This document shows, in pieces, positions 6,660 through 48,236 of a DNA stretch of 64,000 nt. Each line of letters opens with the position of its first letter. Position 1 is the first letter of the stretch. Under the pieces are notes generated by a model that was not told the origin of the DNA, ran no database searches, and saw only the letters and a list, made by a program, of their open reading frames with translations. The stretch is taken from IMG/VR virus record IMGVR_UViG_3300030104_007230, positions 18,165 to 82,164 of that record; one strand, written 5' to 3'. The stretch is from a virus. A program made the translations under genes and the position numbers.

Positions 6660-8228
6660 ATGGGAAAGAAAAAATCTAGTGCGCCTAAAGTTGAATATAG
6701 AGATCCACCAGCTACCGAAACAAAAGAAGTTGAATCTACGGCGTTAGAAACGCAAACTGCGTTATCTCAGTTAGGACATGAACAACAACTAGGAGCAATG
6801 GAATACGGTGCCGAAATGGACCGTACTAATGAAGAATTTTTTGCAGGACAAGATATTCGTAGAGCGCAAGCAGCAGGAGCAGAAGATCGTTTAGGTATAC
6901 AAGAAAGAGGTTATCAAGAACGTGAAGGAACAAAAGAAACAGGTGCACAACAACGTTTAACTCAGGCAGATTTGCTTGCAGGACAGGAAAGACAAATAGG
7001 TGCAAGAGGTGAAGAAGAACGTCTAACACAAGCTGAAAGATACGCAGGAGAAAGTGGCTTAGTTAGTGATAGAGGAGCACAAGATCGTTTAACCCAAAGT
7101 GACTTACTTGCAGGTCAAGAAAGACAGATCGGTAGAAGAGGAGAAGAAGAAAGGTTAACAGTTGGAACAAGAGGAGAACAAGAACGTTTAACTCAAAGTG
7201 ATTTACTTGCAGGCCAAGAAAGACAAATTGGTGCAAGAGGTGAACAAGAGCGGTTAACCCAAAGTGACTTACTTGCAGGTCAAGAAAGACAGATCGATGC
7301 AAGAGGTGAACAGGAACGACTAACACAATCAGATTTATTAGCAGGTCAAGAAAGACAAATAGGAAGAAGAGGAGAGGAAGAACGTTTAGGAATAAGAGCA
7401 ACGGGCGAAGAAGAACGTTTGGGAGTTAGAGCCAGAGCAGAAGAAGCTCGATTAACTCAAGCTGATTTGTTAGCTGGACAAGAAAGACAAATAGGAAGAA
7501 GAGGGGAAGAAGAGCGTTTAGGAATGAGAACTAGAGGAGAGGAAGATCGTATAACTCAAGAAGCATTATTAGCTGGACAGGAGAGACAGATCGGTAGAAG
7601 AGGAGAAGAAGAACGTTTAACACAAGCCGAAAGATACGCAGGAGAACGAGATCTGGTTTCTGATAGAGGAACACAAGAACGTTTAACTCAATCAGATTTA
7701 CTTTCTGGACAAGAAAGACAAATCGACAGGAGAGGAGAACAGGAACGTTTGACTCAATCAGAGAGATATGCAGGGGAAAGTGGCTTAGTTAGTGACAGAG
7801 GAACACAAGAACGACTAACTCAGGCAGAGTTATTAGCTGGACAAGAAAGACAGATAGGTAGAAGAGGAGAGGAAGAGCGATTAACACAAGCAGAAAGATA
7901 TGCAGGAGAAAGTGGATTAGTTAAAGATAGAGGTTCCGAAGAACGTATGACTCAAGCTGAAAGATATGCTGGAGAAAGTGGTCTAGTTGGTGATAGAGGT
8001 TCTGAAGAAAGAAAAACACAAGCAGACTTATTATCAGGACAAGAAAGACAAATTGCTAGAAGAGGAGAGCAAGAACGTCTAACAGTTGGAACAAGAGGAA
8101 GAGAACAAAGAGCAAGTATTGGTAAAACAGGAGAAGAAACACGTAAAACTGCAGGACAAGCTGAAGAATTCCGTCGTTATAAGGAGAATAGAGACTATGA
8201 TCAGTCTCGTTCTGCTTATAGATCATGA
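6660..8228 (+). CDS. Hendecad-repeat protein, probable long helical virion protein
   Basis: 522 residues. Residues 99-483 consist of 35 consecutive 11-residue units with no break in register; the most common pair is RLTQSDLLAGQ followed by ERQIGRRGEEE. The register can be followed from about 77 to 494. Such 11-residue periodicity gives a slightly right-handed coiled coil or long amphipathic helix. It is Arg/Glu/Gln-rich and strongly charged. It ends in a 4-nt overlap with the next gene, just upstream of packaging genes. Candidates are an internal core/ejection protein or a helical tail spine; no homologue is recognised with certainty. Confidence 0.75.
   Translation: MGKKKSSAPKVEYRDPPATETKEVESTALETQTALSQLGHEQQLGAMEYGAEMDRTNEEFFAGQDIRRAQAAGAEDRLGIQERGYQEREGTKETGAQQRLTQADLLAGQERQIGARGEEERLTQAERYAGESGLVSDRGAQDRLTQSDLLAGQERQIGRRGEEERLTVGTRGEQERLTQSDLLAGQERQIGARGEQERLTQSDLLAGQERQIDARGEQERLTQSDLLAGQERQIGRRGEEERLGIRATGEEERLGVRARAEEARLTQADLLAGQERQIGRRGEEERLGMRTRGEEDRITQEALLAGQERQIGRRGEEERLTQAERYAGERDLVSDRGTQERLTQSDLLSGQERQIDRRGEQERLTQSERYAGESGLVSDRGTQERLTQAELLAGQERQIGRRGEEERLTQAERYAGESGLVKDRGSEERMTQAERYAGESGLVGDRGSEERKTQADLLSGQERQIARRGEQERLTVGTRGREQRASIGKTGEETRKTAGQAEEFRRYKENRDYDQSRSAYRS
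6954..8108 (+). repeat. 33-bp coding tandem repeat array (about 35 units)
   Basis: The DNA encodes 35 in-frame 33-bp units, many arranged as 66-bp pairs. Units differ by synonymous changes (for example GACAAATAGG and GACAGATCGG for the same residues) as well as by residue changes, so the array is old enough to have diverged but keeps exact length. Long minus-strand ORFs here are shadows of the repeat. Confidence 0.85.
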
Positions 8229-17665: not shown

Positions 17666-18448
17666 TTGGCATCGACCTCAACAAATAAACAACCAATGAT
17701 GCTGGATAGACCAGCAACTTCTAGTACATTGGTTACTGTTGCATCAGGACAGTTATTTTCTACTAGTTTAATTCCTACAGCGATTGGTAACTCTACAAAA
17801 GTATTTGATGTTGATTCTGCATTAACAGATAGTTCTATTGGTGGTGCATATGTTGATGAAATATGGATTAGGTATTCCAGAGATGTAAATGATTATATAG
17901 AAGCACTTTCACCTATTACTGCAACTTATTCTATAAACAATGGTTCAGGTGGAGCAGGAACAATACTAGAGGTTGCTTCATCTAGTCATAATTTAAAAGT
18001 AGGTCAAAAAGTTTATTTAAACTTTACGAGTGGAACTGGAGTTGATGGTACTTTTAGCGTCACAGCTGTTACAGGTGCCACCTTTACTGCAACACATGGT
18101 ACTTCTTTAAATACAAGTGGAGCTGTTTCTGTTTATGAGCCTACTGATATTTGTTTTTACTTAGTTAAAGTAGGGACAATTACTAATACCAATCAATTCT
18201 TTCCTTTATTTGTAGCAAATGTAGAATCTATTCCTAGTAATGCAACTTATAGCATGACTTTGAAAGAGAGATTACCTTTTATTAATAATCCTGTTCCTCA
18301 TGCAGGAGCTAATTTTACAGGTTTAGATGTATCTCCTAAAACTCGTGGACTAATACTTCCATCAGGATCTGCTTTATATGCATCTGTAAGTGGGGCAACT
18401 TCCTTAACTAATGGATTCTATATAAATGTTCAAGGAGGATACTATTAA
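17666..18448 (+). CDS. Tail/neck structural protein with one FCCH-like beta module
   Basis: 260 residues with a TTG start. Residues about 98-153 form a beta module with the pattern HNLKVGQKVYLNFTSG, VDGTFSVTAV, FTATHG, TSG. The same pattern occurs three times in the 771-residue protein two genes on. Such HGLxxGxxVxF modules in phage proteins often score to the E1 FCCH-domain fold. The rest is beta-rich. Probably part of the tail or neck, partnering the large protein. Confidence 0.65.
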   Translation: MASTSTNKQPMMLDRPATSSTLVTVASGQLFSTSLIPTAIGNSTKVFDVDSALTDSSIGGAYVDEIWIRYSRDVNDYIEALSPITATYSINNGSGGAGTILEVASSSHNLKVGQKVYLNFTSGTGVDGTFSVTAVTGATFTATHGTSLNTSGAVSVYEPTDICFYLVKVGTITNTNQFFPLFVANVESIPSNATYSMTLKERLPFINNPVPHAGANFTGLDVSPKTRGLILPSGSALYASVSGATSLTNGFYINVQGGYY

Positions 18449-26791: not shown

Positions 26792-28558
26792 ATGCCATAT
26801 CTTGGGAATAATTTAGAAGCAGCCTTTAAGAACTATAAATCTATTGATGATATTAGTAGTAGCTTTAATGGTTCAACAACTTCTTTTGCTTTACAAGTAA
26901 ACAGTCTTACTCCAGTTCCTTTTCCTAGAGATGCGCAAAATTGTTTAATCTCTATTGGTGGTGTAATACAAAAACCTGATACAACAGGAACTACTGGATT
27001 TAAACTTTCAGGAACAAATATAGTTTTTAGTTCTGCTCCTGCAATAGGAGAATCTTTCTTTGGAGTAATTCTTGCAGGTGCAGATTATGTTAATGCAGGT
27101 GTTAATTATCCAGACGGCACTGCAGGTGCACCCTCAATAACATGGTCTGACGATACAGACACAGGATTCTACCGATCAGGTGCTGGAACTACATCTGCTA
27201 CTGCTAATGGATCTCAAGTATTAGAATTTCCTTCTAGTACGTCAGGTACTTTTTCTGTTTTAAGTAAATTAGCTATAGGTACAACAACTGCAACAGGAAA
27301 ATTAACTATCCATAACAGTGATGATGCAAATGTAAATGTACTTGAGGTATTTAACGATAATGGTAATAATAGTGGTGGTTTTTCCCAAGCTTCTGATGGT
27401 GATGGAACGATATTTGCAAAGAAGAATGATGGAACATTAAGTATATTTTTAAGATCTGATGGTATTTCTTATTTTAATGGTGGAAATTTAAGTATAGGCA
27501 CAAGTGCGGCTGACACTTTGCTTCATTTAGAGGCAACAAATACATCAAGTAGCATTAATAATGCTATTAGGATTTCTGATGCAGATACGGCAGTTGTCGC
27601 TGATCAAGTTTGTGGAAGAATTGAATTTGAAACGGCTGATACAGGCAACCCAGGTGTTAATTGTCAAATTGATGCTATTTATAGTGGAAATGGTGGAGGA
27701 GGTGAACTCCAAATAAGAACAGGTTTCGCTGGATCGTTAGTAGATGCTTTAAGAATAGACGATACTGGAAACGTAGGTATAGGTGCAGCTCCTAGTGTTG
27801 CACATTCTTCTGGTAGCCAATTAGTTATAGGTACTGGGTCAGGAGAAAGAGGCATGACTATCTACTCAGGAAGTACTTCAGGAGGTGTTCTTAACTTTGC
27901 TAAAGGTACTTCTAGTACTGATAGATATGACGGAAGAGTTTATTACACGCATCATGCCTCTGCTTCTCACATGCGCTTTATGGTTGGGAATGGTGGAGAA
28001 AGAATGAAAATAAAGGAGGATGGTGATGTAGAGATAACAGACGGCAACCTAGTTGTAGCAAACGGTCACGGTGTTGACTTTAGTGCTGTTACTAATGATA
28101 CAACCAATGCAACTTCTACTAGTGCCACTTTAAGTGATTATGAAGAAGGTACTTTTAGTCCTACTTTAAAAAGTAATGGAGCAGCTAATACATATCCAAC
28201 ACAAAGCTATACTGTTAATACTGGTTATTATACAAGAGTAGGAAGAATTTGCCATGTTACTTTTGATATTCAAATGGCTAGTAGTGGTATAACTTCAGGA
28301 TCTAATTATTGTAATATTGCTAATTTACCTTTTAAAATTTATAATTCAAATAATGCTAGAGGTGTAACATTTAACAATTCTTTTTGGGACAATTGGACTT
28401 CTGACAACACTCCAACAACTGCTTATGGTTATAAAGATGATTACTGGGTTTATCTTTTAGCTTTAGATGAAAGTAAAAACAGTAAGGAATATGTAGGAGC
28501 TAGTCAAGTTACAAATAACACTAGAATAATGGGTTCTATTACTTACACGTGTCAATAG
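26792..28558 (+). CDS. Long tail fibre, locus 1
   Basis: 588 residues. The N-terminus (DDISSSFNGSTTSFALQVN, then GGVIQKPDT) is an attachment domain shared with the fibre at 44.7 kb. The shaft contains DTGFYRSGAGTTSATANGSQ and units like ALRIDDTGNVGIGA. The C-terminal domain starts at DYEEGTFSPTLKSNG and continues GYYTRVGRICHVTFDIQMA, again shared in outline with the second locus but diverged at the tip. A receptor-binding role is likely. Confidence 0.75.
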   Translation: MPYLGNNLEAAFKNYKSIDDISSSFNGSTTSFALQVNSLTPVPFPRDAQNCLISIGGVIQKPDTTGTTGFKLSGTNIVFSSAPAIGESFFGVILAGADYVNAGVNYPDGTAGAPSITWSDDTDTGFYRSGAGTTSATANGSQVLEFPSSTSGTFSVLSKLAIGTTTATGKLTIHNSDDANVNVLEVFNDNGNNSGGFSQASDGDGTIFAKKNDGTLSIFLRSDGISYFNGGNLSIGTSAADTLLHLEATNTSSSINNAIRISDADTAVVADQVCGRIEFETADTGNPGVNCQIDAIYSGNGGGGELQIRTGFAGSLVDALRIDDTGNVGIGAAPSVAHSSGSQLVIGTGSGERGMTIYSGSTSGGVLNFAKGTSSTDRYDGRVYYTHHASASHMRFMVGNGGERMKIKEDGDVEITDGNLVVANGHGVDFSAVTNDTTNATSTSATLSDYEEGTFSPTLKSNGAANTYPTQSYTVNTGYYTRVGRICHVTFDIQMASSGITSGSNYCNIANLPFKIYNSNNARGVTFNNSFWDNWTSDNTPTTAYGYKDDYWVYLLALDESKNSKEYVGASQVTNNTRIMGSITYTCQ

Positions 28559-28625
28559 ATCTTTAGACCGTTAGCACGTCTCAAAACTACGCCATAAACC
28601 TGTTTTAATCGGAGATTAATCCTAA

Positions 28626-28919
28626 ATGGCTACACTCACAGAAACACAAGAGAACGATAAGATTGAAGTTCTAAAATGGGACATACAGGTAAGAAACGCA
28701 ACAATCATTAAAAAAGATGGTGTGGAACTTACCCGTACCTTTTATAGAAAAGTATTACAACCAGGAACACTTGATGAAAGTGATAACCTAGTTGAGACAG
28801 ATATCAGTGGAGAAGATGCAGACGTACAAGCAATATGTAACGCTGTATGGACCACACAAATCAAAGCAGATTACAAAGCTTTTTTAATTGCTAATAAGAA
28901 TACAACTCCTGCTAGTTAA
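28626..28919 (+). CDS. Small fibre-associated protein
   Basis: 97 residues, alpha/beta (EVLKWDIQVRNATIIKKDG, LTRTFYRKVL, VQAICNAVWT). A protein of similar size and layout is encoded next to the second fibre locus at 44.3 kb. Such pairs are common beside cyanophage fibre genes. Function unknown. Confidence 0.55.
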   Translation: MATLTETQENDKIEVLKWDIQVRNATIIKKDGVELTRTFYRKVLQPGTLDESDNLVETDISGEDADVQAICNAVWTTQIKADYKAFLIANKNTTPAS

Positions 28920-32094: not shown

Positions 32095-32556
32095 ATGACT
32101 GAAAATTTAGAAAAAAATCCTATCAAAACCGATCCTATAAAAAAGAAGAGCGTACTTAATAAAGTTAAAGATGCCTTGCTTCCTGATCAAGAAGAACAAG
32201 CTGCAATCATCTCCACAGCTGTCAGAATTGTAGTACTTGGGTGGTCGGGTGCGATCTTAACTTTGAATTACGTTTCTATTCCAGGAATACCACAACAAAA
32301 AATAGATCCGACATTTATAGCTTCAGTTTTTACAGGGGTACTTGCTAGTTTTGGCATTGCTACAGCATCTAAAAAAGGAGATGGAACAATGAAAATGAAC
32401 GGTGAAAATAATAATCAAGTTAGTAAAGAAGATATGGAAAAAATGATTGAAAAGGCTGCAGCTACTTCTGCTGTTCAAACAATAAGAATTGAACAAGCTC
32501 CTTTAGTGATAAAAACAGAAAATAATAAAAAAGAAGATAAAAAATATACTTTATAA
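32095..32556 (+). CDS. Two-segment membrane protein, possible holin
   Basis: 153 residues. Hydrophobic segments at about 41-60 (AVRIVVLGWSGAILTLNYV) and 73-92 (FIASVFTGVLASFGIATA), with Lys-rich N-terminus and a long charged C-terminal tail. Two membrane helices with a charged tail fit a class II-like holin, and a lysozyme-like gene follows 2.2 kb on. Function is inferred from topology only. Confidence 0.6.
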   Translation: MTENLEKNPIKTDPIKKKSVLNKVKDALLPDQEEQAAIISTAVRIVVLGWSGAILTLNYVSIPGIPQQKIDPTFIASVFTGVLASFGIATASKKGDGTMKMNGENNNQVSKEDMEKMIEKAAATSAVQTIRIEQAPLVIKTENNKKEDKKYTL

Positions 32557-32597: not shown

Positions 32598-32816
32598 GTG
32601 GACATTCCTAATCTTCAATCTCAAGTACAAGCGCAGCTAGATGAATTAGCAGGAAAAATAAGAGAAGCAGAAGAATCTCTTATGCGCCTTAAAGAAAACT
32701 TTTTAAAAGTTCAAGGAGCAAAAGAAATGTTGAATATAGTTGCTGCTGAAGAAAATAAAACCTTAACAGATCAAGAAGTAAGTCCAGATCAAACTTCTTC
32801 CGCTACTGCAGACTAA
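32598..32816 (+). CDS. Small coiled-coil protein, cyanophage type (GTG start)
   Basis: 72 residues from a GTG. DIPNLQSQVQAQLDELAGKI opens a coiled coil (residues 5-50), followed by an acidic tail. I recognise this N-terminus from small cyanophage proteins. The stop overlaps the next ATG by 1 nt. Function unknown. Confidence 0.6.
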   Translation: MDIPNLQSQVQAQLDELAGKIREAEESLMRLKENFLKVQGAKEMLNIVAAEENKTLTDQEVSPDQTSSATAD

Positions 32817-33025
32817 TGATCAATCAATTTACGAAAGGACGTTATAAAGCTTTAGAGTTATTATCTCAATATTTAAAAACTCCTTCTCGTCAATTGAAAT
32901 TAGATGCAATCATTACGGATATTCCAGAAGAAGACCTTCGTTGGGTTACAGAGCATTTTCATTACTATGCTTTAAAACTTTTGGAAGAAGTAGAAGACAA
33001 AGTGCAAAGACAAGCTGAGATTTGA
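32816..33025 (+). CDS. Small hypothetical protein
   Basis: 69 residues, helical and charged (YKALELLSQYLKTPSRQLKL, DLRWVTEHFHYYALKLLEEV). Coupled to the gene before it by a 1-nt overlap. No family recognised. Confidence 0.6.
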   Translation: MINQFTKGRYKALELLSQYLKTPSRQLKLDAIITDIPEEDLRWVTEHFHYYALKLLEEVEDKVQRQAEI

Positions 33026-33075: not shown

Positions 33076-33237
33076 GTGGAATACGATTCTGATCCAATAG
33101 CACCTAAAGATTTTTTAGATAAAAAAGTTAAAGAATTAAGTTCTTTTGAACAAGATGAAATAACAAAAGATTTAATGGATCAAAGAGATTTAGAGCAACA
33201 GCTAAGTTCTGATGAAAAATATCAAGATTATTTATAA
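33076..33237 (+). CDS. Small acidic protein (53 aa)
   Basis: 53 residues from a GTG (EYDSDPIAPKDFLDKKVKEL, then SSFEQDEITKDLMDQRDLEQ). Very acidic and helical. It ends 2 nt before the Dps-like gene, so the two are probably co-translated. Function unknown. Confidence 0.55.
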   Translation: MEYDSDPIAPKDFLDKKVKELSSFEQDEITKDLMDQRDLEQQLSSDEKYQDYL

Positions 33238-33239
33238 AC

Positions 33240-33698
33240 ATGACTAAAAAACAATCAAAAGAAATTTGTTATTGTCATCTAGTACAGCTTTTACGTTGTA
33301 CTTCTCATCTTTTAAATCAAACTTATATTGTTCATTGGAATCTTATAGGATCTAAGTTTTACAGTATGCATCTTTTAACTGAAGATATTTATAAAGAAAT
33401 GCAAAAAGGACTAGATGTTGTTGCTGAACATATACGTTCTTTAGATATTAGTATTCCTTTTTGTGTTATGGATTTAAATGAAGCAAAAGAATTAAATCCT
33501 TTACCGCATGATTGTTTTGCACAAGAAGAAATGATTCATGTTTTATCAATGAACTACAATAAACTTGCTGAATCTTTCTCAAAACTTTCAGAAGAAGCCG
33601 AAGCTATTGGAGATCAATTAACAATGGATCTTGCAGCTGAAAGAGGACGCACACATAAGAAACAACAATGGCTATTAAAGTCAAATCTTCCAGTATAA
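33240..33698 (+). CDS. Dps-like ferritin-fold protein with full ferroxidase set
   Basis: 152 residues, about Dps length. YIVHWNLIGSKFYSMH at 29-44, then GLDVVAEHIRSL at 57-68, place His32, His44, Asp59 and Glu63 with spacings 12, 15 and 4, identical to E. coli Dps His51, His63, Asp78, Glu82. The C-terminal helix (QLTMDLAAERGRTHKKQQWL) also fits. Dps proteins form 12-mers that oxidise Fe(II) with peroxide and may bind DNA. There is no long Lys-rich N-tail, so DNA binding is not obvious. Cys10, Cys12 and Cys20 near the N-terminus are unusual. Confidence 0.8.
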   Translation: MTKKQSKEICYCHLVQLLRCTSHLLNQTYIVHWNLIGSKFYSMHLLTEDIYKEMQKGLDVVAEHIRSLDISIPFCVMDLNEAKELNPLPHDCFAQEEMIHVLSMNYNKLAESFSKLSEEAEAIGDQLTMDLAAERGRTHKKQQWLLKSNLPV

Positions 33699-34450: not shown

Positions 34451-34834
34451 ATGGCAACTAGAACTATTAAAGGAACCTTAGACACGCTAGAAGTGGATGC
34501 TGGTTCAGAAATTACGTATAAAGGAGGCTCTTTAACAGGCAGTCCTAGTAACAATAAACGTGCTTTTCAGGTTAATCCAGGAGGAACGGGTTCTTTAATT
34601 GTCGATCTTGATAAAGCAGTAGGTGTTAAAACACTTGAAATTTTTCAAGAAGATGCTTATACAGGATCTGCACGTGCTACAGGTTATCAAACAATTACTA
34701 ACATTGGAAAAGATGGTAAAGGCAAAGGCGCTGTTGCAGTAACAGTAACAAATGCAGCAAAGAATTATATTGTTATGCTTACCTTAAGTGGTTATTCAGA
34801 AGTTGCCTACAGCGGATCCGTTACTATCCCGTAA
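34451..34834 (+). CDS. Hypothetical beta-rich protein
   Basis: 127 residues, Gly/Thr-rich, predicted beta (TIKGTLDTLEVDAGSEITYK, AVAVTVTNAAKNYIVMLTL). No signal peptide. It starts 4 nt after the NblA-like gene and overlaps the lysozyme-like gene start by up to 47 nt. Possibly a small virion or fibre part; function unknown. Confidence 0.6.
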   Translation: MATRTIKGTLDTLEVDAGSEITYKGGSLTGSPSNNKRAFQVNPGGTGSLIVDLDKAVGVKTLEIFQEDAYTGSARATGYQTITNIGKDGKGKGAVAVTVTNAAKNYIVMLTLSGYSEVAYSGSVTIP

Positions 34835-35531
34835 ATTAGATACTTCGTATGCAAATAAATATGCTTATAAAATAATTTCTTGGTATGCCATTCCAAGAAC
34901 CTATAAAGGATTTGACTCTTTTGCTTCATATAAAAAAGAAGGTGAATCGATATGGCGAATAGGTTATAACAGTACAGAGATAAGAGATAGAGTTATATCA
35001 GGAAGAACTAAAGCCACTAGAGAAGAAATAGAAGAACAACTTCAAAGAGATTTAGAAAAACTTTCTTATAAAATAGCAAGATTAATTATCTGGCCTTTAA
35101 ATGCTAAGAAAAAAGCAGCAATTTTAAGTTATGCATTTAGCATAGGTTTTCCTGCTTTTAAAGATTCTGATTTACTAAAAATAATAAATAAAGGCGCTAA
35201 AAGAAAAGAAATTATTAAGATTTGGTCTCCTTATATCAATAAAGAATGGATTCATTATGGACAAAATTTTATTGATCAACGTAGATCAGAACTAAATTTA
35301 TTCTTGGAACCTGCTAAACAAATTCCTACTTTAGTTCCACATAAATGTAAACTTAAAGAGTGCCTTTTAAATATAAGTACTACATATAATGGAAATATCA
35401 ACCAGATTAAGGCAATCACTTATCTGGAAAAGAAACTTTTAGAATTTGATCCGTCTGGAGAGGTTCTTCGCAGGTTTTTTCGATACTGGAATCAATCTCC
35501 AGGAGGTCTGGGATCTCCAAATTGCCTTTAG
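34788..35531 (+). CDS. Phage lysozyme (GH24)-like endolysin with altered active site
   Basis: 247 residues from GTG 34788; TTG 34803 is an alternative. SIWRIGYNS at 54-62, LNAKKKAAILSYAFSIGFPAF at 104-124 (family NxxQxxAxxSFxFNxG) and FIDQRRSELNLF at 161-172 match T4-type lysozymes. At the usual catalytic site the sequence is YKGF (39-42) where the family has (F)EGF, so Lys40 replaces the catalytic Glu, and Thr is replaced by Arg before IGY. Either a nearby acid takes over or activity is reduced. Residues 175-247 are an extra C-terminal part. No signal peptide, so a holin would be required. Confidence 0.65.
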   Translation: MVIQKLPTADPLLSRKLDTSYANKYAYKIISWYAIPRTYKGFDSFASYKKEGESIWRIGYNSTEIRDRVISGRTKATREEIEEQLQRDLEKLSYKIARLIIWPLNAKKKAAILSYAFSIGFPAFKDSDLLKIINKGAKRKEIIKIWSPYINKEWIHYGQNFIDQRRSELNLFLEPAKQIPTLVPHKCKLKECLLNISTTYNGNINQIKAITYLEKKLLEFDPSGEVLRRFFRYWNQSPGGLGSPNCL

Positions 35532-47150: not shown

Positions 47151-48236
47151 TTACCCAATAGCAGGCGCTATAAGAGCAACTGGGGTAGACTCAGCAGCAG
47201 CTAAATCAAGAGGGAAGTTGTGAGCGTTACGCTCGTGCATTACTTCCATACCAAGGTTTGCTCTATTAAGAACATCTGCCCATGTTGGTACCACTTTTCC
47301 AGAAGAGTCAACAACTGATTGGTTAAAGTTAAATCCATTCAAGTTGAAGGCCATGGTGCATATACCCATTGAGGTAAGCCAGACGCAAATAACAGGCCAA
47401 GAAGCAAGAAAGAAATGTAAACTACGAGAGTTGTTAAAGGAGGCGTATTGGAAGATAAGACGTCCGAAGTAGCCATGCGCTGCGACGATGTTGTATGTTT
47501 CTTCCTCTTGTCCGAATTTGTAGCCATAATTTTGGGAATCTAATCCTGTTGTTTCACGAATAAGTGAAGATGTAACAAGTGACCCATGCATAGCACTAAA
47601 CAAAGCACCGCCAAACATACCCGCCACACCTGCCATGTGGAATGGATGCATGAGGATATTATGTTCCGCCTGGAAGACAAACATAAAGTTGAACGTGCCT
47701 GAAATGCCGAGAGGCATACCGTCACTGAATGATCCTTGTCCGAAAGGATAGACGAGGAATACAGCAAAAGCGGCTGAGACTGGTGCGGAGTAAGCAACAC
47801 AAATCCAAGGACGCATTCCTAGTCGATAACTAAGTTCCCATTGTCGTCCCATGTAAGCTGAGATACCGATGAGAAAGTGGAATATAACGAGTTGATATGG
47901 TCCACCGTTATACAACCACTCGTCGATGGTTGCAGCTTCCCAGATTGGGTAGAAGTGAAGACCGATTGCGTTCGAACTGGGAACAACGGCTCCTGAGATG
48001 ATGTTGTTTCCATATAAAAAAGAACCTGCTACAGGTTCGCGAATACCGTCAATATCGACGGGTGGAGCAGCAATAAATGCCACGATGAAACAAGCTGCAG
48101 CTGTTAATAAGCAAGGAATCATAATGACTCCAAACCAACCTACATAGATGCGATTGTTTGTGGAAGTAGTCCACTCACAAAACTCGTCCCATCCTTGTAA
48201 TAAACTGCCACTTCTTTTTAAAGAAGATGTTGTCAT
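47151..48236 (-). CDS. psbA: Photosystem II D1 protein
   Basis: 361 residues, full length. The Mn-cluster and pigment ligands are all present: Asp170 equivalent (FSDGMPLG), QAEHNIL (Glu189/His190), HPFHM (His198), HERNAH (His332/Glu333/His337), and LDLA at the C-terminal cleavage site. Gln stands at the position equivalent to residue 130. The gene replaces damaged D1 during infection so that photosynthesis goes on. It is single-cistron with its own terminators on both sides, and it is richer in GC than its neighbours, in line with host origin. Confidence 0.97.

Follow-up and report, generated by a model that had tools for sequence, protein, structure and literature searches.

E. coli Dps binds and shields DNA. 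Canonical Dps proteins use H2O2 about 100-fold faster than O2, store the product, and avoid the hydroxyl radical, with a 12-mer shell that holds up to ~500 Fe (PMC6675082). An aspartate or glutamate at position 67 (E. coli numbering) is a water-mediated ligand of site B, while the replacement of D78 by histidine defines the His-type class, represented by the His-type FOC cyanobacterial proteins NpDps4 and TeDpsA (PMC6675082). Phage-borne Dps is already known by annotation: among 50,697 phage records, Dps-like genes are annotated in the cyanophages S-EIV1, S-SRM01, and others. A literature search found nothing on the function of phage Dps.

The window analyzed here is a stretch of 64,000 nucleotides (positions 18,165 to 82,164) of the 86,161-base virus record IMGVR_UViG_3300030104_007230. 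It contains an ORF at 33240–33698 that the preliminary description took to encode a Dps-like protein of a phage. On the sequence evidence, the product of this ORF is almost certainly a Dps-type miniferritin.

Sequence and Family of the Protein

The dps ORF starts with ATG, and the opposite strand over the same stretch is rich in stop codons. Its product matches the Pfam Ferritin family PF00210 with 43.8 bits (cut-off 24.5, E = 3e-11) and PHROG 3636, named “DNA binding protein”, at 2e-21. In a phmmer comparison with solved Dps structures, C. jejuni Dps is the top match (5e-16). These scores are well beyond chance, and the IMG/VR record of this virus was hit as well. The preliminary description had named a profile search against ferritin and Dps as a check on its claim. 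The score above the PF00210 cut-off, the matches to PHROG 3636 and to Dps structures, the fold model, and the ligands constant in relatives (see below) all bear the claim out.

The scores against both NCBIfam equivalog models are below cut-off, at 51.4 versus 114 bits for E. coli Dps (NF006975) and 24.4 versus 300 bits for cyanobacterial DpsA (NF052461); the protein is thus a divergent Dps, an orthologue of neither type. The gene is under purifying selection, with dN/dS values of 0.12–0.14 against its nearest relatives (contigs L001 and L002) and 0.03–0.10 in the remaining computable pairs.

Ferroxidase Site and Predicted Structure

In an alignment with E. coli Dps (NC_000913 b0812), H32, H44, D59, and E63 correspond to H51, H63, D78, and E82, and the steps from one to the next (12, 15, and 4 residues) are the same in both proteins, just as the preliminary description had it. 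All four residues are constant in each of the 62 distinct viral homologues, and W33 aligns with W52 of the E. coli protein. The fifth canonical ligand, D67 in E. coli, is E48 here, an exchange that keeps the acidic character and is also found in C. jejuni Dps. Across the 62 viral sequences, position 48 is occupied by Glu (28), Gln (32), or Lys (2). Histidine is absent from the position of E. coli D78, which is D59 here and Asp in all 62 viral sequences. Together, D59 and the acidic position 48 therefore identify a canonical-type and not a His-type Dps. Likewise constant in the 62 sequences are D125 and D130, which align with D141 and D146 of E. coli Dps, presumably the acidic 3-fold pore region.

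The viral clade has specific cysteines: C92 in 59 of 62 sequences and C10 in 61, the remaining one having a gap; C12 is also present. Neither Cys10 nor Cys92 is known as a Dps hallmark. A disulfide or an additional metal site is a possible role for C10, C12, and C92.

The AlphaFold2 monomer model, built on 24 viral sequences, has a pLDDT of 86.5 and helices at residues 3–35, 41–67, 95–123, and 126–148, and the chain ends after helix D, leaving no helix E. A 3-residue helix in the B–C loop (76–78) lies in the least confident stretch of the model (73–79, pLDDT below 50). The top Foldseek matches are Dps proteins, and VIA-align superimposes 148 residues on Thermosynechococcus Dps (2c41) at 2.5 Å with Z 18.6. 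Bacterioferritins reach Z values of up to 17.5, so that the fold by itself has no power to split Dps from other ferritins. In contrast, the ligand set, as read from the alignment, does separate them. A ferritin or bacterioferritin identity was rejected, since the ExxH of the 24-mer intra-bundle diiron site does not occur in the 152 residues and Dps proteins are the top matches.

Gene Neighborhood

The gene lies among late genes that all point in the same direction, in the order DUF6450, two small genes, a 53-aa ORF, dps, psbN-like, NblA-like, a conserved 127-aa protein, and lysozyme (Table 1). The 53-aa ORF stops 2 nt ahead of the dps ATG, and in relatives L001 and L002 the upstream ORF stops 1 nt ahead of dps; this close spacing suggests that the 53-aa ORF and dps may be translationally coupled. 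Downstream, the PsbN-like gene begins 24 nt past dps on the same strand. The NblA-like protein is kept in every long relative examined here at 66–94% identity, although Prochlorococcus, the presumed host (see below), has to our knowledge no phycobilisomes to degrade. A promoter and terminator scan gave no excess over shuffled sequences, and a tRNA search found none. Elsewhere in the window, a 522-aa protein (6660–8228, plus strand) consists mostly of repeats (ERLTQSDLLAGQERQIGRRGEE and variants) and is partly conserved in relatives.

Table 1. Positions of the features discussed; those in the first eight lines refer to the window, the others to the contigs named.
Feature	Position	Strand	Evidence
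DUF6450 late gene, left slot border	32095..32556	+	PF20048, 112.6 bits; syntenic in relatives
Two small conserved late genes upstream of dps	32598-32816, 32816-33025	+	Conserved in relatives
53-aa ORF, GTG start	33076..33237	+	Read directly from sequence
dps-like miniferritin gene, 152 aa	33240..33698	+	PF00210, PDB Dps matches, fold model, ligand columns
PsbN-like protein, 87 aa	33723..33986	+	PF02468, 29.4 bits (cut-off 25); PHROG 8051, 3e-10
NblA-like small protein, 72 aa	34228..34446	+	PF04485, 18.9 bits (below cut-off 25)
Phage lysozyme (endolysin), downstream of slot	34788..35531	+	PF00959, 51.8 bits
psbA (D1 protein)	47151..48236	-	93-95% to Prochlorococcus records; tree
2OG-Fe(II) oxygenase in psbN slot	G625 27463-28891 (L379); L001 3350-4198
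Type B Dps contigs	L342:831-1439; L355-L359; L360-L377

The late genes around dps, among them the lysozyme and presumed structural genes close by, would suit a protein that is packaged in or exposed on the particle and does not act in the cell. Dps-fold domains do occur in longer uncultured-phage proteins named prohead protease (BFVD A0A6J7XDU5, A0A6J7WPK9, and A0A6J7WIS1). However, the protein studied here is a free-standing 152-aa chain with no extra structural domain, and apart from these BFVD domains no homology to virion proteins was found, making a place in the virion highly improbable.

A late-gene position would also be expected of a Dps that binds host or phage DNA during replication or packaging, and the N-terminus carries K3, K4, and K7; throughout the viral clade, 3–4 of the first 20 residues are basic. 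The name of PHROG 3636 points the same way, but a transferred name is no proof of DNA binding. Moreover, the lysine-bearing tail is short and is modelled within helix A, which starts at residue 3, and the pI of the protein is 6.0 (5.0–6.0 in relatives); DNA binding is doubtful on account of this pI and the short tail. The DNA protection or compaction proposed in the preliminary description is thus weakly supported, and a function as a protection or packaging aid is improbable.

The slot that holds dps is variable. The gene order in L001 and L002 matches that of the window, except that a 2OG-Fe(II) oxygenase on the opposite strand replaces psbN. A close relative of 74 kb (G625; 36% GC, psbA present, TerL 92%) shows synteny to the left and right of the slot and has the oxygenase in it, but neither dps nor any PF00210 protein is found anywhere in its record. 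Because this syntenic relative lacks the gene, dps is best regarded as an accessory gene in a variable slot. All four long relatives carry dps in the same region, though all were picked for having it, whereas only 1 of 18 TerL-positive records picked regardless of dps, many of them fragments, contains the gene. The possibility that dps is a core gene was dropped on the strength of these 18 records and of G625.

Phage Lineage and Presumed Host

The large terminase and the presumed MCP are 64% and 69% identical to those of Synechococcus phage S-EIV1, and no other named phage is that close. By these homologies the phage belongs to the S-EIV1 lineage.

The host is probably Prochlorococcus, as indicated indirectly by psbA, GC content, short DNA matches, and the PsbN-like gene. 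In the psbA tree, the window falls inside a clade of Prochlorococcus and Prochlorococcus phages with 99/90 support; psbA moves between phages, and that of Synechococcus phage S-TIM4 also lies inside this clade. The nearest psbA to that of the window is on L131 (PAZU01000034.1), in a MAG labelled Euryarchaeota, which is likely a misbinned Prochlorococcus or phage contig. The low-GC TerL relatives G625 and G630 carry psbA, and none was found in the records of 22 dps-bearing relatives. The window, L001, and L002 share a GC content of 35%, versus 45–50% in the four long dps-bearing relatives, which are on other branches. Short DNA matches at ~28564–28670 are to Prochlorococcus phages P-TIM68, P-RSP2, and P-GSP1. 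The PsbN gene has been reported as universal in, and exclusive to, T4-like phages isolated on Prochlorococcus (PMC3037559); here, this reported hallmark is present in a phage of the S-EIV1 lineage. Searches for the phage MCP and TerL in 266 and 400 Prochlorococcus genomes gave no match; they had no positive control and are not decisive.

The presumed host genus appears to have no Dps of its own. The viral Dps profile matched 0 of 151 genomes, some of them incomplete, in the genus of Prochlorococcus AG-347-I06, while the family-wide search that served as positive control matched 100 of 201 Synechococcus/Prochlorococcus genomes. A single PF00210 protein is found in 70 of 81 genomes of the genus; the two inspected are both ferritin-like, with ExxH. 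Prochlorococcus has no catalase and is very sensitive to H2O2, and expression of dpsA is ascribed to a single strain, MIT9313 (PMC3033426). Since no Dps was detected in the sampled genomes of the presumed host genus, the phage would add a protective function, not copy one, and may shield the host cell in a way that the host itself cannot. This deficit probably does not explain why phages first came to carry the gene, because the clade is old and has members in phages of higher GC content as well, for which the presumed hosts, of Synechococcus type, do have Dps.

Distribution and Origin

The expectation in the preliminary description that few, if any, cyanophages encode Dps did not hold. A pattern scan derived from the clade alignment identified at least 102 IMG/VR contigs with a Dps of the window type, 80 of which were kept, to which are added the annotated genes of S-EIV1 and S-SRM01 and a second, very divergent Dps in 24 contigs of S-EIV1-lineage phages. 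This second protein, here termed type B, is the S-EIV1 gene, and its motif H-x11-H-x14-D-x3-E is intact in all 23 contigs that cover that stretch. A PsbN-like gene lies 484–514 bp upstream of the type B dps on the same strand in L342, L355, L357, and L358, that is, in 4 of 5 testable low-GC type B loci; L359 is without it, and L356 ends too early. That two Dps types occur near PsbN may point to linked functions, or simply to a tendency of Prochlorococcus phages to carry the same cargo.

In the tree, the window clade forms a single branch (96/100) apart from the sampled cyanobacterial Dps and the S-EIV1 and S-SRM01 proteins; its position deeper in the tree cannot be relied on, given the long branches. 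The long stem of the viral clade means that a recent pick-up from a sampled host is not supported. No cellular member of the clade was found in 84,980 species genomes, although the patterns used are specific to the viral clade and have little bearing on a distant origin. Recent theft from the host is likewise not supported: the viral clade makes up one side of a long branch, with no cellular members found by these clade-specific patterns. Viral profile scores are best for Rhodobacterales (89 bits) and reach 76 bits in cyanobacteria, and owing to the long branches the tree is uninformative on the source.

Proposed Function

The protein is most plausibly involved in iron and peroxide detoxification in infected cells (with a probability of roughly 0.6), in which Fe2+ would be oxidized by H2O2, the iron stored, and Fenton damage limited. 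Among the roles offered in the preliminary description, detoxification tied to photosystem damage fits best, because the PsbN-like gene follows dps directly, the NblA-like gene is nearby, psbA is present, and no Dps was found in the presumed host lineage. Two observations count against this proposal. About half of the viral clade has Gln or Lys as fifth ligand, and the absence of dps from the 74-kb syntenic relative indicates that the gene is dispensable.

In the proposed mechanism, the S-EIV1-lineage cyanophage would produce, along with its late gene products, a Dps that is predicted from its ligands to be catalytically competent and that would form a hollow shell of 12 subunits. Fe2+ would enter via acidic 3-fold pores lined by D125 and D130. 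Pairs of Fe2+ would then bind at the subunit-dimer interface, where, by alignment with solved Dps, H32, H44, and E48 of one chain are expected to face D59 and E63 of the other. Oxidation of the bound Fe2+ by H2O2 would yield a ferric core. The joint removal of Fe2+ and H2O2 could lessen hydroxyl-radical damage while the infected cell still photosynthesizes and makes phage; in an illuminated cell that keeps D1 going via phage psbA and psbN, Dps would clear both Fenton reactants.

The same ferroxidase chemistry also entails iron storage, and the protein could instead serve chiefly as a reservoir that stores iron from photosystems or other Fe proteins for the phage or withholds it from the host, with peroxide removal being secondary. 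The ferroxidase site and the acidic pore residues would suit this role equally, the open ocean is iron-poor, and in relatives the slot holds an iron-using 2OG-Fe(II) oxygenase. In the window, however, the slot is occupied by PsbN and not by the oxygenase, a PF00210 ferritin is already present in most of the Prochlorococcus genomes sampled, and a 12-mer shell stores less than a 24-mer. A primary role as iron reservoir is thus considered unlikely.

Phage photosynthesis genes usually duplicate host genes. In contrast, this phage probably carries a protective enzyme that is apparently missing from the host genus. Extending the detoxification proposal, it is tentatively suggested, at less than even odds, that a canonical H2O2-using ferroxidase is supplied by a Prochlorococcus phage to a host without Dps and catalase and is co-expressed with phage PsbN as an added defence, and that the repeated association of PsbN with two Dps types marks a photosystem-plus-iron/peroxide protection module of marine phages with low GC content. 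Infection of peroxide-sensitive, catalase-less Prochlorococcus offers a direct test of whether viral genes relieve that limit, and the same cells could show if phage yield in the ocean is constrained by how iron and peroxide are dealt with. The presence or absence of dps at one slot is a natural experiment, with G625 as the natural empty site.

Comparison with Known Dps Proteins

To judge from the literature found, the following are new: how large the virus-only clade is, the occurrence of two Dps types within a single phage lineage, a slot in which dps may be present or absent, and the probable combination with a Dps-less host genus. The best solved matches, C. jejuni Dps (PDB 3kwo, 5e-16) and P. 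aeruginosa PA0962 Dps (8ff9, 1e-12), share the ferroxidase residues of the phage protein, Glu in place of D67 among them. However, they are cellular proteins of ~30% identity, whereas in the viral clade Cys10 is conserved and the N-terminus is distinct. E. coli Dps matches in H51, H63, D78, and E82, as well as in the two aspartates aligned with D125 and D130, but differs in D67 versus E48 and in its N-terminal tail, that of the phage protein being far shorter. DpsA of the Synechococcus/Cyanobium group shares the canonical H/H/D/E set but forms a separate clade.

Among phage proteins, S-SRM01 Dps (QPX48251) is also a cyanophage Dps with H/H/D/E intact, yet it comes from a Kyanoviridae myovirus, is 25% identical, and falls outside the window clade. 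The S-EIV1 “DNA-binding ferritin-like protein” (AHV82153) and the other type B proteins come from the same phage lineage as the window, with intact H/H/D/E and PF00210 scores over the cut-off. In contrast to the window protein, to which AHV82153 is 28% identical and whose clade it falls outside, the type B proteins are encoded next to sulfate adenylyltransferase, have a long N-terminal tail, and have the Trp after the first His replaced.
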